DNA of 64,000 nt from Globomyces pollinis-pini (Eukaryota > Chytridiomycota > Chytridiomycetes > Rhizophydiales > Globomycetaceae), in the NCBI GenBank assembly GCA_025399215.1, contig MU621128.1:29353-93352 (forward strand), written 5' to 3'. The notes beneath the pieces are model-generated. The model had not been told where the DNA came from. It searched no databases and saw only the letters and a program-made list of their open reading frames with translations. This document shows, piece by piece, positions 6,001 through 62,100 of this stretch. The first letter of the stretch is position 1, and each line of letters opens with the position of its first letter. The position numbers and the translations under genes were made by a program.

Positions 6001-9000
6001 AAGAAGCATCAATATTAAAATGTATTGTTTTCGAACCAGCAACTGGAGAAGTAACTGCATCTATTCCTGTCAAGGTTAGTGGACGAGCTGTTTTTTCAAA
6101 GTTTACTGTACTGCCTGTGAGAGATTTAAATTTTGGAGCTTTAGTTCATGGAGCAAAATCTACTAAGCAATTCCTCATTGAAAACACCGGAGAATTCGAT
6201 TTTAGATATTCAATTTTCAAGCTAATGGCTCGTACAGCTGAGCATGGAAAGCATAGGCCATCAGCAAAGCCTGGTAATAACGCCAAGGGAAGACCGGTCT
6301 CCCCTCCTCCAGCCATGCGAATGGTGAATAAGAAAGAAATTGTAAAGCAGACCGACACAATCAACTTTGGTGTGTTCTCTGTGTTCCCGACCAGTGGAGT
6401 CGTACCAGCAGGAACTAAACAATCAATTACAGTCGATTTTCATGCCGACACATCAGGAAGTTTTGAAGAAACTATTGGAATAGATGTCTCTGACAGATCC
6501 CCTACTGAATTCAATGATGCTATGGAGTATCAGCTAATTGGGGAGAGTTGTATACCCGGCATTAATACTACCGACTTCACGTCAATATTTGAAGAGCAGA
6601 GTGTATGCAAACGTCTCGAACTATTTAAAACTCAAACCAGTGTATATGGAGAAGAAGATAGAGTATTTTATTATGGAGCATTTCTAGCAGGTCAGCAAGT
6701 CCAAGTTCATTTTAAAATATCCAACCCATTCAAAGTACCGTGCGATGTTTCCTTCTTCACTAAGCCCAGAGGAAAAACTAAATCAGAGGCCAGTGATTTC
6801 TCATTTGATGTAGAGCCAAAGAAACTTACCATTCCAAGTCATGAACATCGATATGTCGCAGTTTCATTTCATCCAACAACAATTCAAACTTACTCTGGTA
6901 TTTTTGAAGCAATCGTTGAAAACGTAACGGAAGGGAAAAATAAATATTTATCCTTTGAAATAAGGGGAGAAGGTACTCTACCAAGAGTTACTGTTGATAA
7001 ACCTACTTTGAAGTCAAAAAGTGGCATAGCGTTGCTGAAATTCAGAAAACTATTAGTGGGGACATCTCAAACGCTTTCAATTGTTCTGCGAAACGATGGT
7101 ATTATTTCTGCCAATTTCAAACTTGAATGGCTGTCAAAAGACAATGACGATTTTTATTGCTCGTCATTAAACAGTTATCAGAGTTTAAAGCCTCAAGAAT
7201 CAAGGAGTATTGAAGTGAAATGCCAACCATCTTCAATAAGAAAATTAGAAGGTGAGCTCAAGTTGAAAGTCATCGACAATTCATTTGAAGATTCAAGCAT
7301 TCAAGTGATGGGAGAAGGATATATGGATGATTTGACAATCGAGGGATTTGGGGAAGATGTAGAAAATGAGATGGCATTCTTGGACTGCTATATTGGAGAA
7401 TCTAAAAGTATGAATTTCCGTCTGAAAAATCATTCAAACGATTGGTTAAAAGCTGTTTTTATTGAAAATGCCGATTTTGTCTTTTCTCCTTTGCAATGCC
7501 ACATAAAGCCTAAAGGGGGAGAGCGTGAAATAACAGTCAACTTTTGCCCAAAACAACCAGTAGACATCCAGCATATTTCAAACGTAATTAAAGTTTCCAA
7601 ATTGAAGTTCGCACAACCACCCGAATTTGATTGGGATGATAGAATGAAGATTGTGCGATGGGTTAATGTAGAACAACCTGGAATGAAAATACCACTATCT
7701 AAAAAAGTAATAGAGCAACTTCCTGAGCCGGCTTATGATGTTCTATCAAGTAGCTCAGACTATCATATTTTGTTAACAGCGTTTTCAGACTATTCTAGTT
7801 ATGAATGTGATGTGAACAACATTCATTTCAAAAGCACAATGATGTATCAAAACAGAGTATATCGTTTTCCAATCCGAAACATAGGAAAGGTATCCCTTCG
7901 CTTTGCTTTCGAAATTTTCAGTGACGAATCTTTTTCAAACGAAAGTATCGATTGCCCATTCTACATAACACCAACGTCTGGTAAAATAGCGCCAGGTGAG
8001 GTGGTGATGGCGGTTGTTCGCTTTTCACCTACCGATGTGGGTGAATACAAGAATTTCATTCAATGCAAAATATCAAATCTTTCCAAAGATCAAAAACCGT
8101 TGCAAATACAGGTAGATGGATATTCTTTACGACCTTTCTGTCATTTTGAGTTGGAAGACACTGATCCTATGGCAGTTGAAAACAGAACACCAGAGAGGAG
8201 TCTAATGAATGGGGTACCAGTTGTTTTGGAACCAAACACCAAGATTATTGAATTCAAGTCGTGCGGAATCCGTGTTAAAAATATCAAGAAATTCTATATT
8301 GTTAATCCTACTCAAAACAATTATGAGTTTATGTGGAAACTGGAATCTTCAGGAGAATCTAAATCTTGCTTTAAATGTTTGACACCGAAGGGATTGGTCG
8401 CTTCGAACAAAAAATCCGAAATTTCGTTTGAATTTATGTCTGATTCTTTAGATACCAAGGTAATCATAATTCCCTAAAACTTTAGGAATCTCTTTGGAGC
8501 TTTTTACTACCAGAGCATGGAATTAAAATTCCATTTCTATTGATAGGATATGCATTGGAACCCAACGTGTACATGAATGTCGCTGGGGTCAACTTTAAGT
8601 CCGTGTTGGTTGGTAGGCATGTTAAGGAAGTCGTGAAACTGGTAAACGATGAATTGATGCCATTTAACTTCAATTTTAATGAAACTTCGGTGGAAATGGG
8701 CAATGAAGGAGTACCAGTACTCAAATTCCATCCACTTTCGGGAATAGTACCTCCTCAGTCCGAAGTGCCTATAGATATCTCATTCATACCGCCATCTGAA
8801 AAGATGTATAACTTTAACTTGACGTGCAATATTCGCAAAAAACCGACACCAGTTACAATCAATGTTAAAGGGGAAGGTTATGAAATCCATGATTCGTTAC
8901 ACATGGAGCTAGTTGACGGTTCTATGCTTCAATTAGTGTCTGGGGGTACTGCAGAGAATAGTATCGACTTTGGTATCGTTCAAATCAATGAAAAGAGGAT

Positions 9001-13623: not shown

Positions 13624-15417
13624 TTATAGCTTTGCTGCTTGCCTTCGTCGATTGATTCTTACTCTTGGTAGCTCTCGTACAATATGAATCTTTTTTGGCA
13701 TACAAAATGGAATAGATTGTTCAAGCCATTGTCGAAGCTCTGACACCGACACTTTCAATTTCGGCTTGAGTAAAACTGCTACTTCAATATCTTGACCAGA
13801 TAATACACGAGGAACACCATAAAAAATGGCTTCTTCCACGGCCGGATGTTTCAACAATACCTAGTCGGATCAGATTCTATTAATAAGTTACTTGTTGCAG
13901 ATCTACAGCAGAATATATTTTGCCATCATGTTTAAATGGAACAAGTTTCCTACCGACTAACATCAAATATCCTCTCTCATCTTTCCATCCCATGTCCCCT
14001 ATTTTGGTCAATAATTCCAATTTACCTGTTTTAAACCACCGTTTTCCATTTATCATTACAAAACAATGATCATTTGCATCATCATTCCAATATCCTATTA
14101 ATTAGTCCCAACTCCATAGAAAACCTGAAAAAACTGTTGATCCATTGACGCAAACTTCTCCAATGCCTCGTGATATTGGTGCATTATTGTGGTCAAGCAA
14201 ACACACTGAAACGCCTATTGGTTTTCCAACAGAACCGAATTTCCTAGTACCACTAGGAATAATGGAAGCAATTTGATGCGAAGTTTCAACCATTACGTAA
14301 GACACCACAATCGGGACTTGAAAAGCCTACAAAATTCATTATGATTCAATCAAACCTGTTCTAGAGACAAAACTGTATCTCTTTCAGCGTCCAGTCCACA
14401 TGTTTGAATAAATCGCATACTATTTGGTGGTGTTGGTTTACCATTAAGCTTTGACAAAATTAATTTGTGCAATATTGGTGTGGTCGAATACCAAGTAGCC
14501 TATCATTAATTATTGATTTATTCACTTTGAACATTGATATATTCTTCCAAAAATCGTCAAAAGATAATGCTGGTGGCAAAATAACAGAGGCACCTGCATA
14601 AAAACTAGCCAAAAGAACTCCAATTAATCCATAAGAGTCTGTATGTTAGTGATTGTATATATACGATAGAGCGGCATGACTTGGTAAGTGAGATCCGATG
14701 CACCTAATGTGAGGGAGTTGCATATATTGAAAAGAGATTCCAAAATATTGTCATGGGTTAGAGGGACCAATTTAAAATCCCCAGATGTACCAGGAGTTTT
14801 AAGTAATACAGCAATATCAGAATCTTGATACTGATATTGTGCATTCCGATCACCTGAAGCAGTTAAAGGAGTTGATACACCAATGTTGGTGATTGTACAA
14901 ACAGGTTTGACTGTTTTGATCTGATGGCTAGCAATTGGAGATATTGTTCTTATTATTCTTGAAGTTGATTCCCAATGTTGAGGTACCAATTCCACGACAA
15001 CTTTAAAGAGAGGAATTGACAAAGAATTGCAAGCAGCAGCGATGATATGAAAATTCTCAAAAGTATCTGAAGTGATGACGAATCTAGGAGAAACGATTTT
15101 TAGATGATTGATAGTATCATTAAGGTTATTTGTAGTGTTGATAGGATTTACTATAGCACGAACGGCTACTATAGCGAAGAAAGAACAAACGAAATCTATA
15201 GAATTTGGTAGGAATAAAGATACCTAATATTAATTGATAAGAATGATACTAATTCACCAGGGTTTAAATTACAGAAAGGACTAGTTTGTTGTAAGAATTG
15301 AGTAGCATGTCGAATACTTGAATAATGTATCTTATTATTTAAATCTGGTAATATGATAGCAGGAGAGAAAGAATCAGTTAATATTTCAGTTAAATTTCGA
15401 TATAATTTCTTTTGCAT
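13624..15417 (-). CDS. AMP-binding (acyl-CoA synthetase family) protein with C-terminal peroxisomal signal
   Basis: Seven exons on the minus strand; introns 15224-15249, 14639-14664, 14500-14525, 14327-14355, 14095-14124 and 13861-13891 (26-31 nt). The product is 541 residues. ANL-superfamily landmarks are PGELVSLFLPNS, MPLYHSYGLIGVLLASFY, ATWYSTTPILHKL, a SYVMVETSHQ stretch (usually GYGMTEASHQ), ERGYLMLVGRK and LLKHPAVEEA. The closest named type I can suggest is Pcs60/Fat2-like peroxisomal ligase. The last three residues, AKL, fit a type-1 peroxisomal targeting signal. Several catalytic motifs are degraded. The phosphate loop reads TPGTSGDFK where TSGTTGxPK is expected, and the C-terminal LPRxxTGK lysine is replaced (LPRVRINRRR). 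The enzyme may therefore be weak, altered or inactive. Substrate unknown. Confidence 0.8.
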
Positions 15418-15469
15418 TGAAAATAGTTTAAAATTTTTCTGATCTTTGAATCAAAATGACGAAAACTAA

Positions 15470-15568
15470 AAGAATTATTTCTTTTTGTTTCTTGTTTTTT
15501 GTTTCTTGTTTTTATTAAAGAATTATTTCTTTTTGTTTTTTGTATTTCTTTTTGTTTCTTTTTATTAA
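15470..15568. repeat. T-rich imperfect tandem repeat
   Basis: Two imperfect copies of a unit of about 48 bp start with AAAGAATTATTTC and run into T-rich TTTGTTTC tracts. It fills the short gap between the start of the AMP-ligase gene (15417) and the stop of eIF1 (15583), both on the minus strand. On the minus strand it reads as an A-rich tract, so it may serve as promoter sequence for the AMP-ligase. Confidence 0.7.
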
Positions 15569-15582
15569 TAATTTCAATTCGA

Positions 15583-16041
15583 CTAAAAACCGTGAACTTT
15601 AATCTTATCCTTGGTGGCTAAAAATATTTTAAAATTAAATAATTTACCAATCTCTTCAGTAGTTAAAAATGCTACAGTCTTTTGTCTTTGATCTCCTGAC
15701 ATTTGAATAACTTGTCCCATTTCATCATCCTGTACTATATTACCAATACATCCAAATTCCTATATCATAAAATTATTATTAACATTACTTTCTTAAAAGC
15801 TTTTAATAACCTTTTTTGATCAATATCAGATGGTAATCCTTGAACTGTTGTAATGGTTTTACGTCCTTGACGTTGTTGAATTCGAATGTCTGATATTAAT
15901 TAGTTGTCTAAAAACTTTACGAATATTTCCAGTAGATTCTAATTTATCACTCTCTCCAGTATCTGCAAATGGATCATATGTTCCAAGACTATTCAATTAT
16001 TAGTCAAACAATTTTAAATACTTTTGAATGTTTTCAGTCAT
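15583..16041 (-). CDS. SUI1: Translation initiation factor eIF1 (SUI1)
   Basis: Five very small exons, each too short to stand out as an open frame, splice into a complete 111-residue eIF1. Introns are 15989-16021 (33 nt), 15890-15920 (31), 15760-15788 (29) and 15618-15647 (30), all GT-AG. The protein carries YDPFADTGE near the N-terminus, then the hallmark HIRIQQRQGRKTITTVQG (residues 30-47), FGCIGNIVQDDEMGQVIQ and the family's C-terminal end IKVHGF. eIF1 binds the 40S subunit next to the P site and enforces AUG start selection. Length matches the family (108-113 aa). The ATG at 16041 gives the expected short N-terminus. A possible 28-nt 5'-UTR intron lies at 16044-16071. Confidence 0.95.
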
Positions 16042-33406: not shown

Positions 33407-36400
33407 TTACGTTTTACGCATTTTAGACGATTGATTTGTTTTCACACGCTTTGAAGCGAATTCCGAAGCCTTTCGTTTGCGATTGTTCTGTTTTGTTGCA
33501 TTTTTCTTCAGCCGATGTTGTGCATATGCAACTGGATCTGCTACTGCTTGTATTGATTTCCTTTCCTTTCTTGCACGTCTTTGAGAGACCACATTTTCAT
33601 GTACAATTTGAAATACTTCCACATAAGTTGTAGTACCAGCCTCTTTCTGTAAAAAAGACATTACTTCTGTGGCCAATTGTTTGAGAGATGCTAATTGTCA
33701 ATGCTTATTTAAAAATTACTTATATCTTCCCCTTTTAATGTTTCATCTTTCTCTGTATGATATAAACAAGTGATCATCATTTGTAATGACACCTTTTCGT
33801 ATGACTTTGGAATATGTTTGAATATCGCTGCAAAATATTGGAAGACGTTGGCTCTCTAATGGTTATTAAAAATTATTATATACCAAAGTAATTCCTCTAT
33901 TCTTCTTTGCACTCTCGCTTCTTGAAAGAAAACAAAGTCTTTTCATCAACCATAGCAAGGATTCTCCCTTTTTCACTACAGTCTCCAAAGCATCATCTTC
34001 GTTGAGTTCATCAATGTCAGGCTTGTCTTGGCTCAGGAATGGTATCAAGCATTTAGAGAGGAATACTAGATTCTTGGTAACTTGTTTGGCATGGATAGTT
34101 GTAATATAGTCTGAATCTAATTGATCACAGCATTGTTTTGCTAAACTTCTAATGTCCCCTTCAGTTTTAAGTAAAAAGTAAGATTCTTGAGTGTTTGATT
34201 TTCCGACTGCAGAAGCAACAAGTTTTCTTGTTGAAGGGTCAATAAAAGAAAATATTGAACCAATTAGTTGCGAGGCTAACAATCTAATCCATTGGTGAGG
34301 ATGCAATAATTGCTGTGTTACTACACTCCACAAGTCCGGTGAATTGGTTGTAATTGATGGAAAAGCACGTAACATTTTGGTAACACTCTTTAAACTCATA
34401 TATCCCAATTCCCAGTACTCTAGCTCCTCATCTATATTTGTGTTATCATTTTGCAAATTCTTCCATTCATTCAGAGTAATTGTGAGTGATCCAGTTAAGC
34501 TAAGTTTCCAATCATCGATCCATTTTTTTGTTCGATCTCCAAATGCGTCGATCACCAACCCAACTAATTGGCACGCAACTTGCTTTAGCTCTTTTTGCTC
34601 CTGGTCAAACCATTTCTTCAAAAGAAGGAGAGGTTTGTCCATTTTTCCTACGTCAAGTCTTTTACAAATAGAGATAATCAATAGCCCAGCTATTTCTTTA
34701 CACTTTGAAGATTCATCATTTGCAAGCACCATTACTACAGACAGGAATATCATATCACTATTGGATTGAAACACCTCTTCACTAAATTTAGCGACACCCA
34801 AGTTGAATAATTCTAGTACAGATATTCTACCACTTTCAAATTCATATTCTAAATTGGAAACCAAATATGCAATCAGCTTTCGTAATCGAAGATGTCCATG
34901 AGGATAATCCACAAGAAATTGAATAAACGCTTGCCGACAAAGTTCTCGTACTTGGCTACTCTGACTGGTGACCAAAACTCTAGCAATTCGATCCATAAGG
35001 TCATATATCTCTGAAACAACCATTTTCTTACCCAAGATTGCTCGAATCAATGAAAATGTAGTAGTCTGCTTCTCAGGCTCTTCTACATCGGGTCCTAATA
35101 ATGCAAGAATCGCAACCAGTTTCCTTTCTGGTACTTCGACATGTTTGCAATCTCGAAGAATAACCGTTAATAATTTAAATACATTTTGAACCAATTCTGT
35201 ATCAGTTGAACTCGATTTGGAAACAATTTGAAATAGTCTCTTCACAACCACAGGTAACGTATTGTTTAGAGCTGGTAATTTGGCCTTGATGATATTGGTA
35301 AATATTCTGATTGAGAGAATATTAATTGACGCATGTTTTGAATACATTGATTTACCAATGAAATCAACTAAAGGATCCAGCATTTGTAAGTGTTCCACAT
35401 TGTTTAACTGAATTTTGTCTCGCTTTAAACTGGTTAGTAAAAGCGACAGACCAAACTCCACAAACATATGTACATTCATTTCATAGTACTTTAGCACAAA
35501 GTTAGCATCACTCCGTTTCAGTTGAACTCGAATATGCTTTTCAGTCTCTGATATGGATGGGTTCACATTTTTGGCGTCATGTTGAGTTAAAGGTAAACTT
35601 TCGGATAACAGCTGTTGTATGAATACCATAAAATCCACCATTTTGATAGACGGATTAGCATTTAATCCAACAGCAGTGCGGTTAAATACTTCTTCGATCT
35701 GTCGAATGACTTTGATTTGATTGGTTTCTAACATCAATTCCTTAAGAGGAAGTAATAATTCATTTAGTTTGTGGAATCCCATTATTTTGCACAAGCATTC
35801 GATAGTTTCGAAACTCTTCGTTGTTTTAATTTCTCTCATTTTTCCTTTCAGTTCTTGTACTTCACGTTCCTTTCCAGTTTCTCCAAATATATCTTGAATC
35901 GAAATTGCTACTATTTGACCGACACAATTATCGACTGACTCTGGAGGGAAAATTCCAACATTTTCAGATATAATTGCATGAACAGTATACCCAAGGACGT
36001 GCAACTGGTATCCTCTCTTTAAAGCTGTGGTTAAACCTTTGACAATATATCCAAGATACTTTGGTCCTAACATAGATGATATTTTCACTAACGTAGATCG
36101 AGAACTATCACGAGATGATTGTAAATGAGAAGATAAAATATTGCACAAAGTTGAAACTAGTTTCGGGAGATGAGCATGTAAGGAGTCTCTTGGTAACAGC
36201 TGCAGAAGACGTGTAAGGGCAATAGCTAGCGGTGTCCTAATTGGAACAGATTCATCGTTTTTAACAGAAATGAGCCGCTGGATACTAGGAATTAATTTTT
36301 CAGTCACAGCAAGGTGGATTTTGTCCGCTTCAGTTTGATTAAAACTATCAATATCCATCTCATCTTGTTCCTTTTCATTGTCTTCAAATGTTTCCTCGTC

Positions 36401-39400
36401 TATATCTTCCGTATCATTGTTTGTCTCTTCATCATTGTCAGCATCCGGAGTAGGTTCGATAACAGCCAAGTCAATTTCAGCTTCTTTTGCTTCTGATACC
36501 ACAGCTGGGTTCAGCGTCAAAACGAAATGGAAACGATCCAAGATATGAATGATTAACCGAATCAAAACTTTTTCTAGTTCTGGTCTAAATGAGAAACTAT
36601 TCATAAATCGTTTGATACAACTATAATATTGCCCCCATTTCAAGACACCACAACATGATCCAATTGTAGAAATTGCTTCATTGATAATATTGTGATCATT
36701 GACTTTGTTTGATTCAAATATAAAATGGGCCAAGATAGAAATAAAAACGTTCGAGACGTTAGTTGGTTGCAGCTTGCCTTCATCACAGACCTTTGACAGT
36801 AATCGTAAAGCTTTCACTCGGCGATGCACTTGCAAATGTGTAATATTACTGAAAAAATTGGTTTCATCATCGTTCTCCATCCCACGCAAGTGAACCATAT
36901 CTTCAAATTCTGGCATAGTTCCATGCAACTCGACAAGTTTTCCAAGAAGTAAAACGTATTCGTGTCGTATTACTGACTCTGATATTTTGCATCCTTTCTT
37001 GATTTGAGGAAACACTTGATGAACAATAATAGAGCGATATTCTTCTGATAGCGACTCTTGAATCTCTACTTGCGCTCGCTCAATAAAGCGAACAATACCG
37101 AAACTTGCTGATGTTCGAATTGAAAACTCTTCTGGATCCCTAACGAAATGGAAAAAGTTATAAAGTATAGGCTTCCATTCGGGTATACTAAATGATAGAT
37201 ATGCTGTCTGATTCATTTCTGAATAAGCGGTAAAACGAGTATTGAAATCGGGTTCATCAATTCGTTTAGTAGAATATGCATTTAGATCGCTTAGGAACTG
37301 ACAGACTTTCTCTAATTCAGGTGCCTTGGCTGTCAATGAGCGGAAACAAGCAAGTAATTCCAATCTGGCGTCCCGAGATACCAATAGGTCAAACAGTTGT
37401 GACAGGATAGGATAGTATACCGTTTCAGATGGATGAATTGTTTGAATAGAAGGTATCAATGGAATGAAATTTCGCAAAATTCTAAGGATTTCAGTTTTTG
37501 TAGTTTCAGGGACAGCTTTGACTGATGATTTCAAGAATGGAACAAGAATATTGATGAGTTTTTCAGCAACTGTGCTGGAAGTTACAGAAGACGAAGCTTG
37601 TGAAAGGATTCTTATAACACGAGTTGGTATGCTTTCTCCAATTAATCGAATATTTTTTCCCTTTGCTACTGATTCAAAAGACTTTTCCAGCAATGATTCA
37701 CATTGTTCAAGTAGCAATGGAACATAGTTATTAAACATTGAAGATAAATCTGAAACTCCAGCATCATCAACAGCAGTGATTTGATGATATTGAATATTTT
37801 CGATGATGGACAAAACAAAGGTTACCACAGTTTCATGTACTTTTTTAGCAGATAGTAACCTTAAAATTCCACTAACAAGGTCTGGATTGTATTCAAACAA
37901 GTATCTGACATAACGACGATCTTTTGACCAAGAGGATAGTAACTCTAGGAACGCTGAAGCCGCTTGAGTATTCTCGGTTTCCAAATTTTGAACTCTTGCA
38001 TTAATAAATGACTTGAAATGTTGAGAAATATATGGCGTAAAGTTAAAGTCCACATCGATGGAATATAGAAGGGTGAATCGCTTCATTGTTAAAGTCCTGA
38101 TTAGTCTAGCTTGTGTTACAATGTAATCTTCCGCCTTGGTTTCTGATTCAATTACTCTTTCAGCACCATGTATCATGTAGAGAAAAGTTTCCATCAGCTT
38201 TGGTAAGAAAGGTGATACTAAAGTCCGTAACTGATTGATGAAATCTTCCACAACAGATAAGAAACCAATTTGCTTTTTAATTGGACATAAGGAGTACAAA
38301 TCAACCTCTTCAACCAAAGAAAATTCATTTTCATTTGGTAAAATTTCATTTTTTAACGCAAAGAGCGATTTAAAAGGATCCAACATCAAATCAATAATCA
38401 TAGATCTTTCTTCGTCTGTCAGAGTCGCTAAAAATCCAAAAATGGCAACTCTTCTAGCTTTTACTCCAGACTTTGCCGAATTCCTTCCACGGCGACTGAT
38501 CAATTTACCATAAAGAATTCTACACAATGAGTTGATAAACGGCTTTTGGTCTTCTTCATTTAACGTGGTTCTAATTCGATCCATATCAATCGTGGCAATA
38601 CTATCCCTTAATCGATCATCATCAGCCAAGCCTTGTAAAATTTCTGAATATTTTGTGATTCCAGTTTCTTGCCAAGTCAAAATACATTCTAAAGCGGCTT
38701 GCTGGAATTTGGCATCTCCGTGTGTTAATAAATGATTAAATGTGGCATAGAGTAAGTTGGACTTATAAAGTTTCCTTGGTTTCCTGATTTTCGAAAAGGT
38801 AGATAAATATGCAAGTATTTTAACTCGACTATGCTTTGTATTTGCCAAAGTCACATCCTCATCATTGTCTAATGCAGCCTCCAGAGTGATATTGGTCAAG
38901 TCTATGGTACTATTCATCTGAGTTTGGAATTCATTATCAAATAGAGCTAAGAATAGAGGCACAATCGCACTAGAATGATCATGAATTATTTGAGGCATTT
39001 GAGCAAGGGATTTGATCATCAATACGTAACAATTATTGATATCTAGTGTCATAGGTTCTGCTGCAACTGCCGGAAGTAATATCTTCAAGTTTGTTTTTGT
39101 GATATCAGTAAACAAATCAACAGTGCCATTCCAGTTCTTTGACAAATCATTAAGATATGTACATTCAAATGACACATTAATAAGTCTATGATTCTTTTGT
39201 CTTTTCGGCTCTTCAGCAGTCTCATCATCAAACAAATTGATAGAAGAAGTTTGCTGAATGTTTGATTGAGTTAAAGTCCGTAACACTTCTTCAAAAATAA
39301 TCCAAAAGGACGAGTTGTACTTGGTAGAGCACGCCACCAATGACTTGGTCACTTCAGGCCATAAAGGAGCGAAGTTGACCCCTAACAAGGCCAGGAAATA

Positions 39401-42019
39401 TCGAGTGGGGACAGTTTCATACAAGCTTGGCAGAGTTTTTGATGAAACTAACGCATCAATTCGACGAAGGCAGATAGACTTTTCCCTCTCTGCTGCAAAA
39501 CTGTTTGGCAGTCTTTCTAAATCGAGGCAGTGGTTGAATAACTAGAATAAGTGACTTTGGTGCAATACCTTGCATGGGCCAGTTAGAGTTGAATCTTCAT
39601 GTGATACTAAATCTAGTTGCTTGAATAAACACAAAACGCTAAACGTGTGTAATCTAATGGATGAAGAATAAGATCCAATATTAGACTTTAAAACCGCAAA
39701 AATATCGACTAAGTTCTTTGAAGACAAATAATTTTCCCCTTCACGACAACATTTAATAGCTGTAAGATAGTCTGTCAAACCAGTCAGAAATCCAACATTT
39801 GCGAAACACACTGGTAGCAAATCATCAATTACCACTGACCAAACAGATGTCATGGAATCCTGTTGTTTCATTTTTATTGCTAGTGAAGACAATTCACCAA
39901 GCAATTTTCCCACCAAGCCTTTTATAAGATCATGCCGGTTCCCTTCAATGTATTTGGTTAAATAAAATTGACCAACTTGAGGATCAGAAAATAGTGCAGA
40001 TAAATTAGACATCAAACTAACAATGGTGGCGAAGTAGATATCAAATGAAAAATCAAAATAAGACAATGCAGAAACAGCCGCGTTTAACATCCCAAGCTGT
40101 TGTTCTTCGACATCATAATTGTCACCAGTCCATTCCATTTTTGAAATATAATTGATAATCTTCATTGGGATTCCATTTCCTTTAGCACTTCGAATTAAAG
40201 AATTAGAGGACTTCAATGAATGTGAGAGTGTGAGTAATTGCATCGGAAAGTTGTCATCACGAAACATTTCTGCAAAAAATACAATAAAACGTTCTGGATC
40301 TAAATCCCAATTGCGTTCGGCATAACTAATAATCAGTGTTTGAAAATTCTGTTACGTTAATAAATCAGGCAATGTTAATCGACCAAAGTGTTCAAAAGAC
40401 TTTTTTCGTAGCATATCATAAAACATCAAAGTCACTGCCACATTCTATTTATAAGTTTTTAAATCAATTACTTCGTTCTTTAACATTATGTCCAAAAGAT
40501 TTCGAGCTTTGAGTAAATGGTCCAAAGTAGATGATAGGGCATACGAACTTAAAACCTTGGCACAACTAATCTGCAAATCTTTTTGGTGGGAACCAAAAGC
40601 AACTATAAATATGGACTCTAACTTTAAAGTCAAAAGGGAGTGATCTACTGTCAATGGAACTGGCATTTACCTCCAATACGATTCCCACTACGAACGCCAG
40701 TCCAAACATCGAATAATTGAACGAGATAAGTTAGATTTTTAATCAAATGGGTGGAATCTTGACGAGAATTGATATCGCCAATTAACGTGTCAGAAAACCC
40801 ATATAAAGCGTTCCACAGTTCACTCATAGTTTCTTTTTGACCATAGTTTCCAATAAGTACAAAAAGCTTATTCAACATAATTGGAATGTTTGCTAAACTG
40901 GTAAATATAATATTATTACTGTTTTGGGGATGTGCTAATGGTTAGTAAAATAATCAATGTACCTTCCAAGATATCAAATGATACCGCCAAAATGTTCAAA
41001 ATTATCGATCCCGACCTGGAGTAGAATTGATTGTTCACTTGCTACAAAATAAATAGGTAATCAATACCTTTATGCTTTCAAAAAAGAGAAGTGCGATTCC
41101 TTCCAGGTAGAATTCATTTGATACTTCCACCATTGTATTAATTAAGTGTGAATAGATTTTGGTTTGAGAGACAGGGTCTCGGACTTTTCGAAGTAAGAAC
41201 CCAAATGATTCTGATGCAAAAACACGCACATAAAGTTTTTCGTGCTCCAATAATGGAATCAGTAAACTAAAAATTAATATCAATTTATAATTACTCGAAA
41301 GTATTATTTAAATCTTTCAAAAGTTCCTTGGACAAGTATTTGAATAAATAAGAGAAATTCTGGAAAATTGTCTGTAACATTAGTGACCAAAAACGCATAC
41401 TTCTAGAATTTCTGGTGGTGTTTTTGAAGAAACCAGAGATGCCATTTTGGTTGCTGTTTTTTGAAAGAGGGGATAAAACTCCTCTTGTAAATCCTTCACA
41501 AGTGCAGTGATTAAACTAGAGTCAATGGAGATAACTTCCTACTGCAAAATTGGACTTGTACAATTAGGAATATCCATATGGTCAATTGCACATTGTACAA
41601 TTTTATCTTTGTGATACAAGATTTCCACTAATGAGCGTGTATGTGCTCGAATTTCCGTTTGAAAATCTCTATATTCTGCCGTGCAATTTAATTCGGCCCA
41701 TTTTTCAAGAGCATCCATAAAAAATGAGTCAGTCTAAGTGAGTCAAAACAAAATTGTATATTACTGATTCACTTTCTGAAATCTTGTGAATCACATTGAC
41801 GTTTATATGCTGTATTCTGTCATTAAAAGATTGGAACTAAAGTCAACGAAAATGGTTCAATACCTATTAAAATCTGATTAAAGTAATCACACAAACCTAG
41901 AATAAAATACAGATTAATGATATACCTAAGAGAATCAATTAATTTATGTAGGGATGATATACCTTGAATGTGTTTGAACCACCTTTTCGGTTCAATTGTT
42001 TAACATTCTCTCTATCCAT
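33407..42019 (-). CDS. UTP20: UTP20, small-subunit processome HEAT-repeat protein
   Basis: Fourteen exons give 2,716 residues (human 2,785, yeast 2,493). Introns from 5' to 3' are 41837-41962 (stacked, 126 nt), 41734-41764, 41516-41542, 41372-41400, 41267-41294, 41042-41067, 40935-40962, 40645-40670, 40445-40471, 40326-40355, 39542-39568, 33856-33883 and 33691-33719. The N-terminus NTFKFQSFNDRIQHINVNV, then LEKWAELN, LVEILYHKDKIVQ and ALVKDLQEEFYPLF, tracks human UTP20 closely. So do LLAHKKL-type LLEHEKLYVRVFASES and the basic C-terminus (AVADPVAYAQHRLKKNATKQ). The middle is alpha-helical HEAT-type with one acidic loop. UTP20 is a scaffold for early 18S rRNA processing in the nucleolus. The 40645-40670 intron has a CAGTAG double acceptor, giving one residue more or fewer. 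Confidence 0.93.
41837..41962 (-). other. Quadruple stacked intron (37 + 29 + 33 + 27 nt) in UTP20
   Basis: On the minus strand the 126 nt between exon 1 (ends TTC AAG) and exon 2 (starts TTC CAA TCT) consist of four consecutive GT...AG units: 41926-41962, 41897-41925, 41864-41896 and 41837-41863. All three junctions read AG|GT with no base between. Each unit alone has the size of an ordinary intron in this window. Removing all four joins the protein exactly at the position expected from other UTP20s (NTFK|FQSFNDRI). Confidence 0.8.
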
Positions 42020-42288: not shown

Positions 42289-44094
42289 TTATTGATTATA
42301 GTATCCTGGAGATCGCTGACCACCAGAATATTTTCCATTTGCAGAGTTATTGCCATTACCAGAGTAGTTAGCATTGTTGGAATATCCACCATTACCACCA
42401 GAGTAACTGTTATTAGAATAACTGTTATTGTTGGAATAACTGGCACCATTTGAATGGCTGTTGCTAGCGTAATTATTACTGTTAGAGTAACTACCCCCAG
42501 TAGAGTATCCACTGTTACCACCATATCCAGGACTTCCACCACCGGAATATTTGCCACCACTACCCCCCGAATAACCGGCAGCACTGGAATAAGCTGTGCG
42601 ATTGGAGTTGGTCAAGATTTCGGAAGGCATTGGGGTAGTTTCCTTGAATAACGTACCTTCTTTGTCATTGTAAATGGAACGGGTATGTGCAGACTGAGTC
42701 TTGGAACGACTGTCTGAAAGTTGTGACCGGATTTTCAACACTACCCGAACATGTTCAATGAATAGACAGTTGATAATTGAATGGATGGTAAAGCATAGAT
42801 CGATTGGACCGTTGATAGCAAGATAATTTCTATCGTTGAGCAAAGACTCGGTATAAGCTTGAGTTCCAGCCATAGCGAAGTAAGCGATAGAATTCAAGAT
42901 TTGAGTGAAAACAAGAATGGAAAATTTCTTATCCGCACGATGCAATTCCCTGAATGCTTCCATGGCAGAATTGTAGTTTGAATCAGCTTGAATGATAGCC
43001 AAAGTTACATAAAAAGATGGGGCAGTATTGTACACAAACATACAAAGGATCCAAAATGGTGCTAGTAGTTGCCATTTTTGGATTGTCCCACCAGCACCTT
43101 GTTGCAGACGAAAGTAATCAAAATACTTTCCACCACATAGTACAACATGGGCAATACAAACTGCACCAAAAAGGACGTATTTATGTGATTTCTTATTCAC
43201 TCGGAGGAAAGTGGATAAAAAATTAGTAGTGTTTAAAACAGTAGTAAGGGTAGCAACACTGAACAGGACATTCTTGATCTCTGAGTAAATTTCAAAAGAA
43301 TTGGTATCTGGAAATATCATGTTGTAGTAGACCGCATCAGAACCAATCCAAATTAGCCAGATTACTTGTGACATCAGCAGCCAAAACATATAATTTGTTT
43401 TTCTATTGAAGTATTTGTAAGCCAAGTAGACAATAGTAGCTAAAGCTCCCAAAATGGCAAACAAGAAGCATATATTTTCGGCCACTTCCATGGTGACGGA
43501 GTAATTTGGAACTAAGACAGAGGAAGGAGTGAAAGCAGTCCATGAATAAGATATTGAACCACCTTGAACAGTTACAAATTGACCAGATACACTTCCAATA
43601 ACTGGTAAGGCTTGAGTTGAACTGCTTGATGTAAGCTTTAGTTCTGAAGGAGTCCCCACACAATTACTCTGAGGAAAAACTTGTAATTGACCAGTGGACA
43701 AACATCTAATATTGGAATCGTAACAAGCACCATCAGCTTTATAATATGCTTGTTTTAAACCATACAGGGATGTAGCATTATTTGGAGCTAAATAACAGTA
43801 ACTCACACCATTCGCTGTTGTTGGGGCATGAATTGGTTGAGTTGGGGTGACAGTGTCTTTGATAAAATGATGAGACATACTTTGGTAGACAGAATCTGAA
43901 ATATTCAGTGACGAGTAGCAACAACCAGTAGGTTTCTGTTTTGGGTTATTTCCACAAGTTGGTAATTTGTATTCACTGGTAACAAACGTGTAAGCATTTG
44001 TAGCATTGCTTTCTGAGAACACATACATGGCAGAAGGAGCGTCACCGCAGTTTCCTGCCATCCAAGTGGATTGGAACAATAATTGAGCAGCCAT
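42289..44094 (-). CDS. 7-TM protein with Cys-rich N-terminal domain, paralogue A, low-complexity tail
   Basis: Single exon, 601 residues; family not recognised. Residues 1-205 form a domain with eight cysteines (GNCGDAP, PTCGNNP, GCCYSSLN, SYCYL, ACYDSNIRC, SNCVG). It also has several N-glycosylation sequons and ends SWTAFTPSSVLVPNYSV. Seven hydrophobic segments follow, starting near NICFLFAILGALATIVYL and ending near FTIHSIINCLFIEHVRVV, so the layout is GPCR-like. No signal peptide precedes the ectodomain. The last 100 residues are a Gly/Ser/Tyr/Asn repeat tail (YSGG, YSNN) absent from the other three paralogues. It is the most downstream member of a four-gene array on this strand. The stop lies inside AATAAA (42288-42293). 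A sensory receptor is plausible but unproven. Confidence 0.85.
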   Translation of the reverse strand: MAAQLLFQSTWMAGNCGDAPSAMYVFSESNATNAYTFVTSEYKLPTCGNNPKQKPTGCCYSSLNISDSVYQSMSHHFIKDTVTPTQPIHAPTTANGVSYCYLAPNNATSLYGLKQAYYKADGACYDSNIRCLSTGQLQVFPQSNCVGTPSELKLTSSSSTQALPVIGSVSGQFVTVQGGSISYSWTAFTPSSVLVPNYSVTMEVAENICFLFAILGALATIVYLAYKYFNRKTNYMFWLLMSQVIWLIWIGSDAVYYNMIFPDTNSFEIYSEIKNVLFSVATLTTVLNTTNFLSTFLRVNKKSHKYVLFGAVCIAHVVLCGGKYFDYFRLQQGAGGTIQKWQLLAPFWILCMFVYNTAPSFYVTLAIIQADSNYNSAMEAFRELHRADKKFSILVFTQILNSIAYFAMAGTQAYTESLLNDRNYLAINGPIDLCFTIHSIINCLFIEHVRVVLKIRSQLSDSRSKTQSAHTRSIYNDKEGTLFKETTPMPSEILTNSNRTAYSSAAGYSGGSGGKYSGGGSPGYGGNSGYSTGGSYSNSNNYASNSHSNGASYSNNNSYSNNSYSGGNGGYSNNANYSGNGNNSANGKYSGGQRSPGYYNQ

Positions 44095-44730
44095 GAACTG
44101 ATTCTGGGCGATAAGTTGCTTTTAAACCAGTGCCTCGATCCTTTTGATTGTGGCTCACTGTTTGATCATTGCAGGGTGGACCCTGAGAAAAAGATTAATC
44201 GAAGGAAGTACAAAATCCAACGGGTCCTTAATACTCAAAAATCCAAAAGCGAAATAATGGACCCGATTCGTATAACTTTGACATGAAAAATCTGATTCTA
44301 AAAATCAAATGCATGTTCTCCAATTGGCAGGTGCGGGAATTTAAAAACTGCACGAGGATACTTTGGCTCATCAACTAAAAAAAGTCAGGCTCAACCAATG
44401 TGTTTCCCTCGATTTAATTTTCTCTTTTTGTACATTCGAGGTTACACAGCCGTTCATCTACCTAAATTTTTGGATTAAACCCGTATTCGGCCCTTGGAAT
44501 ATTTGTCTATTTGCCAAGAGATCCTTATTTTGTGTGTTTTAGTTCTTGTGGATTTAAATGATGTTCTTTGTTGGGCGCGACAATCAAATGCGCCGATAAG
44601 GAACATGCCCTAATTACACAATCTTTTACTAATTCCATCACTTATGGTCTGAAATTATAATTTATACTTTGATATATTTTAATAAATAATGTTGAAATGG
44701 GTTTGCCCACTATGTACTGGATAATGGAGA
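44095..44730. other. Intergenic region upstream of paralogue A
   Basis: This 636-bp gap between paralogues B and A has no recognisable gene. It includes a perfect inverted repeat CGGGTCC (44221-44227) and GGACCCG (44259-44265), and nearby GGGTGGACCC (44174-44183), all 80-171 bp upstream of the paralogue A start. Confidence 0.5.
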
Positions 44731-46242
44731 TTACCAAGTCTTTTCAGGGCTTCGATAAACATCCATAGGCTTATCCGAGATTTCTTTTGTCATCACAGAC
44801 TGCGGTATATCGAAAAATACTTGGGTTTCGGTTGTGTTGAATATGGAACGATTTGTTTGGAGTTTATCAGAGATTTCCGACCGTACTTTCAACACAGTTC
44901 TGACGTTTTCAATAAATAAACAATTAACGATCGAATGAATCACAAACGAAAGGTCAATTGGTGCGTTGATTGCCAAAAAACTTCTATCATCACCCAAATA
45001 CTCTGTAAAGTTTTGAAAGATCGCCAAAGTAAAGTATCCAACTGAATTCAAAAACTGTGTCAGTACAAGTATGGAAAACACCTTGTGCTGTCGATGTAAG
45101 TCAATCAATAAATTGATGGATGAGTATTCTTTAATGCCAACCTTCATGATCGAAATTGTTACGTAAAATGCTGGTAGAGTGTTGTAAATAAACATTACCA
45201 ATACCCAAAAAGGTGATAGATATTGCCATTTCTGCACAAAACTTCCAACTCCATTTTGTAATCTATAAAAATCCAAATATTTTCCTCCGCATAACAGTAT
45301 ATGACAGCAAAAGACCAAAACGTACAATAAAATTTTGTATCGTCCATTTTTGACACGAAGGAAAGCCAATAGAAATGTAGTTGTGTTTAGAATGGTGGTT
45401 AAAGTTGCCAATCCAAATAAAGTATTCTTCATCTGTGAAATGTACTTGAGTGTTGATGTTGATGAAAACAGAACATTGTAGTATATAAAATCAACTAAAA
45501 TGTAGATGGCCCATAGCAATTGTGACATCAACAGCCAAAACATGTATTCGGTTTTTCTAGTGATGAATTTGTATGACAGGTACACGATTATAAGAATCGA
45601 ACCGAGACCTGCCAAAATAAAGCAACTATTTTCAATTTTCTCCAGAAACACGGATTGATCAGGAACAAGTAAAGATGATGGTGTATAAGCTACCCAATCG
45701 AATGTTTGTTGAGCTCCATTGATTGTTACCATATGAACCGAGATATTCCCCAACAATGGCAATTGATGTTGTATTTTTGATAATCCCAATTCTATCTCCA
45801 CAGGTTCTCCATTGCATCCTGCCTTGGGGAATACTTGTAACTGACCAGTCAAAAGACATTTTATTCGAGACTCATGACATCGCCCGTCTGATTTATAATA
45901 CGCTTCAGAGTATCCCCAACTATTGTTCGATATAGATGACGTCACATGGCAATATCCAATTCTGTTTGCGTTTAATGGTGCAATAGTCAGTTGGTTTGGA
46001 TCCAAACTAGCATCAATCTCCTGATGTGTTGTGCTCTGGTAAACAGAATCCGTGTTGTTTAATGAAGAATAGCAACAACCAGACAATTTTGGTTTGGGGT
46101 TGTTTCCACAAGTCGGTAGTTTGTATTCCTTGGTTACAAAGCTGAACATGGGAGAGGGGCTAGATTGATTAAACACGTACATGGTTGTTGGTGCTCCAGC
46201 ACAATTCCCCACGGCCCACGACGATTGAAATATCATATCCAA
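44731..46242 (-). CDS. 7-TM protein with Cys-rich N-terminal domain, paralogue B
   Basis: Single exon, 503 residues, collinear with paralogue A up to the last membrane segment. The N-terminus IFQSSWAVGNCAGAPTTMYVF and the eight-Cys pattern are kept (PTCGNNPKP, GCCYSSLN, GYCHV, RCHESRIKC, AGCNGEP), as is the junction DWVAYTPSSLLVPDQSV. Seven hydrophobic segments follow, from SCFILAGLGSILIIVYLSYK to FVIHSIVNCLFIENVRTV. The cytoplasmic tail is short (about 45 residues). Either Met1 or Met3 could be the start. It lies 168 bp from paralogue C on the same strand. The function is unknown; the layout suggests a cell-surface receptor or sensor. Confidence 0.85.
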   Translation of the reverse strand: MDMIFQSSWAVGNCAGAPTTMYVFNQSSPSPMFSFVTKEYKLPTCGNNPKPKLSGCCYSSLNNTDSVYQSTTHQEIDASLDPNQLTIAPLNANRIGYCHVTSSISNNSWGYSEAYYKSDGRCHESRIKCLLTGQLQVFPKAGCNGEPVEIELGLSKIQHQLPLLGNISVHMVTINGAQQTFDWVAYTPSSLLVPDQSVFLEKIENSCFILAGLGSILIIVYLSYKFITRKTEYMFWLLMSQLLWAIYILVDFIYYNVLFSSTSTLKYISQMKNTLFGLATLTTILNTTTFLLAFLRVKNGRYKILLYVLVFCCHILLCGGKYLDFYRLQNGVGSFVQKWQYLSPFWVLVMFIYNTLPAFYVTISIMKVGIKEYSSINLLIDLHRQHKVFSILVLTQFLNSVGYFTLAIFQNFTEYLGDDRSFLAINAPIDLSFVIHSIVNCLFIENVRTVLKVRSEISDKLQTNRSIFNTTETQVFFDIPQSVMTKEISDKPMDVYRSPEKTW

Positions 46243-59132: not shown

Positions 59133-62100
59133 ATGAATCCAAATAATAATCAACAGCTTCCTTCGAAAAGTGCTTACTTTAGTAAACACCCTCCCGTACA
59201 AGATCCAATCATTATCGTAGGATCGTCCCCAAATAGACCCTCAAATCATCCGACATCTAGACACCCAAGTACTGTCCTACCAAATAACTCCAATCTAAAT
59301 GAATTTGAAAAAAATCAATCTATGGCCGATCTAGCAGCTCAACAGCTACATTTACAGCAGCAGCAGTTGCTCTTGCAATCGCAACAATTACAGCAGAATC
59401 AGTCATTGAATCTTAACTTGAATAACCCAATGTTGCAAAATCAAATGGCAGGTTCCAATGTATCACAGATGGCAATACAACAACAATTGTTGCTACAGCA
59501 AGCACAATTAATGAATGCAAACCCAATGATGAATATGGGAAACCTTGGAGTGAACAATATGGGTATGAATGGTATAGGAATGAATAATCTTGCGATGAAC
59601 AATATGGGTATCAATAATGGTGGATTCAACGTTTCACAACATCAGCAGTTACTGTTATTGCAACAGCAACAACAATTACAACAACAACTGCAACTTCAAC
59701 GGATGCAACAGCTTCAGCAAAATCAATATCAAATGATGCCTAATTATAATAATATTCAAATGGCTAATCCTACAAATCAATATGAAATGGATGCCCAAGC
59801 CAAGAGAAGAAAATTGGTCCGTAAAGCTGATATCCCTGTTGTGTCCAACACAAATAACAATATGTTTAGTATACCTGTGGCTCAAAGCACATACCAGAGT
59901 ACACCACCAGCAACAGATTACTATGGACGATACTCCTCCTATAATGAAGATACTTCAACTCAAATTGATGTGGTCATTATGCTTAATTCAAGCACCGGGT
60001 CCGATCTAATTGAAATTTTGGGACTCAATGAGGACCAGGTGGCCATTGTGAAGACTTTAAGACCTATTCAATCTTACAATGGTTGGATTTCAGGTAATAC
60101 TTTAATACTAATTCTCAGCCCCTGATATGAAGCCATTAGTGCGTCTTATTGAGAAATATGTTGTTATGATGGACGATTTTGGAACGGTCGATTCCGTAGT
60201 GTCCCAATGCAATAATGTGTCTTTAAATATCAAAAAGACTATGTATCAATGGGGACAAATACGAGCAGCCGAAAAAGCCAAGGCAGAAGCGTTGATCAAA
60301 GCAGAAAATGGAGATACGGAAGCGTTAGAAAAAGGTTTTAAAGAGTTTGATTTTGGTTAATATTTTTAAATAGCTAACAAAGATATGGAGAATTTACCAA
60401 AGCCGAAATTTGAGTGTTTGACTGTTCAACCAGACATTATTAACAATAAATTTACCCTGAAGCAATATCAATTGACTGGAATCAGTTGGATGCTGATGCT
60501 TCACGATCAAAAGTTAGGTGGAATTCTTGCTGATGAGGTGTGACTTTTCATAGACTAACATTTAGATGGGTTTGGGTAAAACAGCACAAGTATTTCATTA
60601 TTGGAAAATTTTATGACGTTTAGGTATTAAAATTAGTTTTTGATTGTAGGTTGTCAGTTTTCTAGGACTTTTGAGTTTACAGAAAAAGATTGGACCACAT
60701 TTGGTAGTGGTACCTTCATCGACGTTAGATAATTGGATGAGAGAGATCAATCAATGGTGTCCAACGCTTCATTCTATTGCTTACACAGGATCACAACCAG
60801 ATCGTAGAGATATTCAGTCGGAGATTGAAGAAGCGCATTATAACATTATTGTGACTACGTAATATTCATTTCAATTTTATTCGATAGGTATAATATTGCC
60901 ACCGGACATGCTGATGACCGTCGATTTTTAAGAGGACTAAAATGTCAAACTCTAATATTGGATGAAGGGCGTAATAATGATCTTTATTGACTCTATTAGA
61001 TATGATAAAGAATGGTGAATCTCAAAGAGCAAAACATTTGAAAAACTTTAAAATTCCATTTCGATTATTGATCACCGGTACACCATTACAGAACAATTTG
61101 ATGGAACTGGTTTCATTATTAACATTCATTATGCCTGATTTGTTTGAAGCTTGTCGTGAAAATTTTAATGCAATTTTTGATTTGGGAACTACAAAGCCCA
61201 GTGTCAAAGATTTGGATAACAATGTATCTGTACTACGTATCCAAAGAGCAACCAAGATCATGACACCCTTCGTGTTACGTCGTAGAAAAGATGAAGTAAT
61301 TTATAATTTCTTATTCAATTACAGGTGTTGGGTGATTTACCTGCTAAAACGCAAGTGATTGAATATTGTAAGCAAAGTCCAGAGCAGAAAAAATTATATC
61401 ATGTATATCAATAATCATGTAACGGTTAGGAAATTATGATGAGCTCTAAGAAAGCCTTCTTGGATAAGAATGATGGAGGTGCATTAGATATCTGGAAGCA
61501 ACCTGATCAGCGTAAAAAGGAGAATGAAAGTCAATCAAAATTGTCTAATGTATTGATGCAATTGCGAAAAGTGACCAATCATCAGTTGTTGGTTCGAAAC
61601 ATATACAACGATGAGAAATTAGCACAGATGAGCAAAGATATAGTCAATGTAATTTATCTATTTTGATGTGGTAGGAATTGGATTATGTGGATAGTAATCC
61701 GGAATATGTTCTCGAAGATATGTCTTTTATGAGTGATTTTGCCTTACATAAGCTGTGTCGAAACTATGAGGTACAGATCCAGATTCAATTAAATATTAGA
61801 GAATGAAAGAGTATGTATTGGAAGAAAAGGATTGGATGAATGGCGGGAAAGTTGAAGCTTTGAAACGGTTATTGCCAGAGATGAAAAAGAATGGTGACCG
61901 TGTGTTGATATTTAGTCAGTTTGTAATTATGTTGGGTAAATGGTTTCAGGACTATTAATATTATAGATATACTGGAAGTCATAATGGCTACATTAAATAT
62001 GAAATTTTTACGGTTAGATGGATCCACACCTAGTGCTGAGCGACAAGGATTGATTGACGAATATAATCAAAACGATGATATCACTGTTTTCCTATTATCT

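Follow-up and report, generated by a model that had tools for sequence, protein, structure and literature searches.

A 126-nt intervening sequence in the UTP20 gene of the chytrid fungus Globomyces pollinis-pini probably consists of four complete ultra-short introns lying head to tail, one of many such arrays in the genome, which would be spliced recursively at AG|GT junctions through zero-length exons and would have grown by duplication followed by divergence. At the level of protein, whole arrays are removed; their architecture exceeds what chance provides, and their internal units are intron-like. A preliminary description of the window, the 64,000-nt stretch of DNA analysed here (contig C39, positions 29353-93352), had proposed that four introns are stacked in UTP20 with no exon between them. 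This holds. Arrays built in the same way, some as deep as ten units, occur throughout the genome and make the structural reading stronger than it was put at first.

Results

The UTP20 locus

The four-unit stack is one of 13 intron sites in the predicted UTP20 gene, the others being 12 single introns of 26-31 nt. Each unit is listed with its branch-point-like word, the distance of the A of that word from the unit end, and the percentile of its summed donor and acceptor scores among 540 predicted single introns.

33407..42019, minus strand, predicted UTP20 gene, Pfam UTP20_N and UTP20
41963..42019, minus strand, exon 1, 19 codons ending in ..SNTFK; MDRENVKQLNRKGGSNTFK
41926..41962, minus strand, stack unit 1, 37 nt, GTATAT..TTAG; TTGAT, 9 nt; 81st percentile
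41897..41925, minus strand, stack unit 2, 29 nt, GTATAT..CTAG; TTAAT, 17 nt; 95th percentile
41864..41896, minus strand, stack unit 3, 33 nt, GTTTGT..ATAG; TTAAT, 14 nt; 25th percentile
41837..41863, minus strand, stack unit 4, 27 nt, GTATTG..TTAG; TTGAC, 6 nt; 39th percentile
41765..41836, minus strand, exon 2, starting with FQSFNDRI; FQSFNDRIQHINVNVIHKISESES

The sequence is exactly as the preliminary description had it, with minus-strand units of 37, 29, 33 and 27 nt that each run from GT to AG and meet at three AG|GT junctions. The units had also been called normal in size for the window, and they are: the 88 single introns predicted there have a median length of 28 nt and a range of 24-39 nt; the 37-nt unit is long but within range, at the 99.6th percentile of length among the 540 single introns. 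Units 1 and 2 have their first nine bases in common. The first 11 bases of unit 2 (41897-41925), GTATATCATTA, are shared with unit 2 (C1:42556-42589) of another four-unit stack, at C1:42529-42652.

Tilings of this kind are rare in random sequence. Units of 21-40 nt meeting at AG|GT covered the 126 nt in 7 of 200,000 mononucleotide shuffles and in 4 of 40,000 Markov sequences. The four-intron parse was recovered without prior knowledge of the units by a gene finder that permits zero-length exons.

Removal of all 126 nt, which had been argued from the conservation of UTP20 proteins, is borne out by relatives. In Globomyces sp. JEL0801, the annotated UTP20, which is 100% identical across the part used as query and 98% identical in the longest block of the alignment, joins ..SNTFK directly to FQSFNDRI.. 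(FK|FQ); nine of the model's 13 intron sites, the stack included, are joined identically in that protein, a tenth is identical but for one substitution, and three differ. Alignment of the spliced product with human UTP20 (7mq8) is gap-free at the stack junction, with only five exon 1 residues aligned.

Beside UTP20, at 42289-46242 on the minus strand, lie two adjoining, similar open reading frames of 601 and 503 aa, neither of which is matched by Pfam. By eye they look like frizzled-like seven-helix receptors.

Single introns and the gene finder

The gene finder was trained on 264 kb (C1:1-100000, C2:1-100000 and the window), and genome-wide counts refer to the assembly of 18.5 Mb in 459 contigs. 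The 540 single introns predicted in the 264 kb have a mean length of 28.3 nt (sd 2.7, range 21-39), a donor of the form GTA(A/T) and an acceptor that is mostly TAG. Words of the form (C/T)T(A/G)A(C/T), which resemble branch points, are enriched, occurring in 62% of these introns versus 25% after shuffling; for CTAAC and TTAAC, the usual distance from the A to the end of the intron is 6-9 nt. GT..AG ends and lengths of 20-40 nt complete the features of ultra-short U2-type introns. In a survey of fungi, the introns of Cryptococcus neoformans, which average 63 bp, are described as relatively short (PMC8476143).

The finder learned a preference for short introns, and the gene models of the arrays are predictions built or tuned on these 264 kb. 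It also predicted 22 introns longer than 40 nt, which are inseparable from gene-model errors. A scarcity of stopless introns with lengths divisible by three was considered as evidence for surveillance and dropped, because introns of this kind would be read as exon by the finder.

Abundance and spacing of stacks

Stacks account for 11 of the 573 intron sites predicted in the 264 kb (seven of two units, one of three, two of four and one of five), and among these 11 no position bias towards gene starts is clear. A looser run of the gene finder gave 25 intervening sequences of 41-200 nt, nine with AGGT, eight of which tile fully, and 16 without it; this run misses the UTP20 stack, and its 65-nt stack at 7857-7921 on the plus strand is absent from the final set. 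Two further sites in the window are as follows.

60590..60649, plus strand, second stack, in a SMARCAD1/Fun30-like helicase gene, two units (34 and 26 nt), gap-free against SMARCAD1 (9jao)
15196..15257, minus strand, possible third stack, before an AMP-binding domain, two units (34 and 28 nt), its junction as predicted by the gene model

The gene model at 13624-16041 on the minus strand joins a SUI1 (eIF1-like) domain to the AMP-binding domain and probably represents two neighbouring genes fused by the finder.

Across the whole genome, pairs of TAGGTA are concentrated at the spacing of single introns: 383 lie 23-38 nt apart, versus 43 at 6-21 nt and 43 at 66-81 nt, and a further 114 fall at 44-59 nt, a range that includes two-unit steps. 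The palindrome TAGCTA, a control of the same composition, gave 26 strand matches, equal to 13 places, at 23-38 nt. The backward control ATGGAT, a common coding word, is similar in size but has no peak at intron spacing (294, 366, 264 and 269 pairs at 23-38, 6-21, 66-81 and 44-59 nt). Among 100 TAGGTA pairs listed, which form 71 clusters, 64 are spaced by 25-30 nt (chi-square against a flat distribution, p = 6e-6), and a looser three-site pattern found 239 matches versus 114 for its backward control. Tandem AGGT at regular unit spacing, the feature of an AGGT array, is thus present. A very rough extrapolation from background-subtracted and cluster-scaled counts suggests that the genome contains some 200 arrays of at least three units and a larger number of two-unit arrays.

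That the AG|GT tetramers arose by chance in AT-rich introns is a reading to which we give almost no credence. It has to face a nine-fold excess genome-wide that is specific to one spacing, as well as a tiling of the 126 nt expected about once in 10,000 sequences or less; for arrays of at least three units, chance is rejected in bulk by the shuffles and spacing controls. Two-unit stacks are weak singly, 2-4.5% of random introns of 50-60 nt being tileable, and taken alone could be partly a product of chance.

Individual arrays and their proteins

Cutting out the first 30 of 239 two-junction matches yielded 20 distinct places. At 19 of them the gene model contains a stack, which has at least three pieces in 16 cases. 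The exception is L022, which has no stack parse; L026, L034 and L051 have two units, and L033 holds one piece of 68 nt. The gene models at L026, L051 and L041 are weak by score (11, 19 and 22). Larger arrays include the following.

C12:42085-42369 (L044), deepest array, in a PHYHD1-like gene, ten units, 285 nt; two abutting Viterbi chains merged by hand, whose halves count twice in the 20 array records
C7, eight-unit array, 228 nt
C10, six-unit array in MCM8, extended from five to six units by eye
C4, five-unit array
C1:20692-20829, minus strand, five-unit stack in a CLK/LAMMER kinase gene, at the catalytic-loop codons
C15, gamma-tubulin gene with stacks of four, two and three units

The CLK/LAMMER kinase family regulates splicing. 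At C68:15928-16041, several near-identical 27-nt units lie head to tail and have the look of a young array.

Nine stack junctions were compared with solved relatives, all of them orthologues by name apart from a designed propeller, the best match of the WD40 protein. Eight are gap-free: UTP20 (four units, FK|FQ), gamma-tubulin (four and three units, YQ|AD and IQ|GE), PHYHD1 (ten units, FK|QP), NOT3 (two units, L|V), WD40 (four units, CIQ|IW), CLK (five units, LHDL|GLIHTDLK) and SMARCAD1 (two units, GKTAQ|VV). The best matches of UTP20 and NOT3 align only five residues before the junction. The ninth, MCM8 with six units, has a one-residue gap three residues upstream of the junction.

Deposited gene models, which are annotation as distinct from RNA evidence, also bear on the arrays. 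The G. pollinis-pini protein P0183 matches our model exactly, exon by exon, which makes this species the most likely source of the window, and skips the eight-unit array exactly; the JEL0801 model P0184 omits a larger region around that array. In P0063, another deposited protein of G. pollinis-pini, units 4 and 8 of the ten-unit PHYHD1 array are translated into an insert of 19 residues, as would be expected if internal units were optional cassette exons giving variable protein inserts in the manner of the human UBC AGGT array, and every internal unit does have AG before it and GT after it. The insert is, however, absent from the two relatives fetched, P0065 and P0069, and from human PHYHD1, and is probably a misannotation. 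Retention of a single unit without a stop or frame shift would be possible for 7 of 107 units, versus 10.1 expected from shuffles, multiples of three are not in excess among internal unit lengths (34 of 97), and UTP20 units 3 and 4, the two with lengths divisible by three, contain in-frame stops. Cassette exons are therefore a very improbable account of the arrays.

Signals and relationships of internal units

The 97 distinct internal units with TAG|GTA on both sides (98 strings) have a mean length of 29.6 nt (sd 3.2), and 56% carry a branch-point motif at a suitable distance, versus 25% (sd 4) in shuffles, 28% in reversed bodies and 62% in single introns. The small sets from gene models scatter: the motif occurs in 51% of the 35 internal units of the pattern-derived arrays and in 7 of 8 internal units of local stacks, and among last units 47% carry it in the pattern-derived arrays and 36% in the 11 local stacks, with shuffles at 23-26%, and the latter value is no clear rise above its shuffles (26 +- 14%). 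At 19 internal junctions the splice scores average 5.29 for donors and 4.61 for acceptors, versus 4.37 and 4.09 for single introns, the donor scores being raised by the AG that itself precedes the GT. An AG before and a GT after the whole site accompany 2 of the 11 local stacks and 6 of the 20 array records (two of these being the halves of one array), versus 2.2% of single introns, and these flanks may in part be further unrecognised units.

The preliminary description had offered tandem duplication or insertion as the origin of the stack. Duplication fits a minority of arrays: 10 of 98 adjacent unit pairs are at least 70% identical, versus 1.2% of random pairs, and two neighbours in the ten-unit array are identical. 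At UTP20 itself, adjacent units agree at only 46-62% of positions, little different from the average of 52% between arrays, and for adjacent units as a whole mean identity is 0.565 versus 0.521 in random pairs. Judged by such comparisons, a minority of adjacent units are recent tandem duplicates and most are old or independent. When the UTP20 region and the ten-unit array were each searched against the genome at the DNA level, the sole match was the query itself; as these searches skip simple repeats and very common words, the absence of copies falls short of proof.

The same data bear on a mobile introner-like element that would insert at AGGT sites, among them those at the ends of introns already present. 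Repeated insertion would leave neighbouring units mostly unrelated, as they are. It should also have left many dispersed similar copies, and neither of the two arrays searched has them, although copies of one unit or of very common words could escape such a search. We regard the introner reading as scarcely credible, although units may have been inserted long ago.

Recent copying fails to explain the signals of the units, because neighbours are mostly no more alike than random pairs and the arrays match only themselves. Since splice signals persist although most neighbours are unrelated, we infer that the signals of internal units are under selection, that is, that the units splice themselves. 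The retention of splice sites, length and branch-point motifs by internal units likewise lends indirect support to the stepwise removal first suggested for UTP20.

Possible one-step removal and the gamma-tubulin intervening sequence

An array might instead be removed in one step, from its first GT to its last AG, with the internal AG|GT junctions as unused relics of duplication or insertion. The first donor and last acceptor of the UTP20 array score well (65th percentile), and P0183 skips the eight-unit array as a single 228-nt stretch, albeit in a gene model. The gamma-tubulin gene, moreover, requires the removal of an untileable 545-nt GT..AG intervening sequence between NQL and VST (C15:10852-11396, L047/L048), so that the fungus is apparently able to excise long introns, and arrays too could leave in one step. 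Only one gamma-tubulin match in the genome is close, and it contains this sequence; the others are 39-59% identical. The sequence starts with GTAAGC, and its last 27 nt are unit-like, GTAAGC..AAG; its ends look as they might if they were the remnant of an insertion into a small intron. Because this stretch must also be removed, length alone does not force stacking, and a hard ceiling on intron length as the cause of stacks is weakened by it and by the 22 predicted introns longer than 40 nt.

Even so, we consider removal in one step unlikely. Internal junctions score no lower than the sites of single introns, internal units retain intron length and branch-point motifs though most of their bodies are unrelated, and the internal sites should be used by a spliceosome that handles hundreds of introns alike in size and signals.

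Discussion

A model for stacked introns

We favour a model in which each unit of an array is spliced as an intron in its own right. Removal of any unit would either move the next GT to the end of the exon or restore an AG|GT junction, and because each junction is AG|GT, the units could leave in any order and always yield the same mRNA. This would amount to recursive splicing with true zero-length exons, and since pieces of about 29 nt hardly leave space for exon definition, recognition should depend on intron definition. Arrays of two to ten units would arise at AGGT sites, at least in part by tandem duplication of an intron between flanking AGGT repeats; slippage or unequal exchange between the AGGT of the donor and that formed by the acceptor and the downstream exon is a plausible route of growth. 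After duplication, the units would diverge, with splice sites, unit length and branch point held by selection. Unit-by-unit splicing, selection and independence of order are thus what the model adds to the observed architecture.

On balance, we are inclined to regard the tandem intron array, or 'intron satellite', as a distinct class, composed of autonomous minimal introns that would each be selected to splice themselves and would be removed in any order through zero-length exons. If this is true, an intervening sequence would grow by whole introns and not by bases.

Recursive splicing has been studied for very long introns aided by a cryptic exon. In this fungus, hundreds of junctions present that task again, in pieces of about 29 nt that are too short to leave much space for an exon. 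Their RNAs are short enough to sequence, and intron definition, the order in which units leave and the shortest distance between successive splicing events could be put to the test in them. With neighbours that range from identical through half-alike to unrelated, the arrays form a natural series for the birth and maintenance of introns. They also carry a warning for annotation, as stacked arrays can be misread; P0063, in which two units are turned into protein, is an example.

Comparison with known systems

The suggestion that such a stack is undescribed agrees with our search of open-licence PubMed Central by title and start of abstract, a scope that takes in few subscription papers or preprints: among the matches listed, none describes arrays of abutting spliceosomal introns. 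A yeast study of recursive splicing is mentioned in PMC5126111. The unit size resembles that of ultra-short ciliate introns, such as those of Paramecium, at about 25 bp (PMC5014332); a search of that text for the terms of stacking found none, and the host here is a fungus.

Several systems share the duplication or the tandem sites. Intron gain by repeat expansion in Cryptococcus (PMC2395259) and by tandem duplication in the potato RdRp gene (PMC4974935) resembles the origin proposed here in that duplication yields identical introns in one gene, but in those cases the introns arise in a repeat or duplicated segment, and the portions compared contain no abutment of intron to intron. In human UBC, an array of dual-specific AGGT splice sites is described, for which growth by expansion of AGGT repeats has been proposed (PMC10809524). 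Tandem AGGT that could serve as either a 5' or a 3' splice site is common to both, but the UBC monomers are coding and kept in variable number, whereas the Globomyces units are non-coding and missing from homologous proteins; in-frame coding repeats are not what the counts of retainable units or the solved relatives show.

Stwintrons are likewise complex introns of fungi with more than one unit. Their internal intron interrupts a splice element of the external one and removal proceeds from the inside out (PMC7138796; see also PMC9024468 and PMC12403724). Consecutive removal is a feature of stwintrons and would be one of the arrays; stwintrons, however, are nested, whereas Globomyces units adjoin at intact AG|GT junctions with donor, branch point and acceptor uninterrupted, so that the distinction drawn in the preliminary description is upheld.

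The closest parallel in operation would be the ratchet points of Drosophila, which lie mostly in long introns and require a cryptic RS-exon of about 50 nt (PMC8605326). Both have a 3' site abutting a 5' site (AG|GT) inside an intervening sequence, in Globomyces as read from the DNA, and stepwise removal that restores the 5' splice site and leaves no exon in the mRNA would be a further likeness. Ratchet points belong to introns of kilobase length; the Globomyces arrays, in contrast, measure 49-285 nt, with pieces mostly of 24-39 nt stacked up to ten deep. At internal junctions other than the last, another GT lies one unit downstream and could act as the donor of an RS-exon, whereas the last internal junction has no downstream GT of this kind unless the exon begins with GT. 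Because both the long introns of recursive splicing and the nesting of stwintrons are absent, the arrays are set apart from both classes, and they would appear to work like recursive splicing, yet within stretches of 49-285 nt and by simple abutment of one intron to the next.
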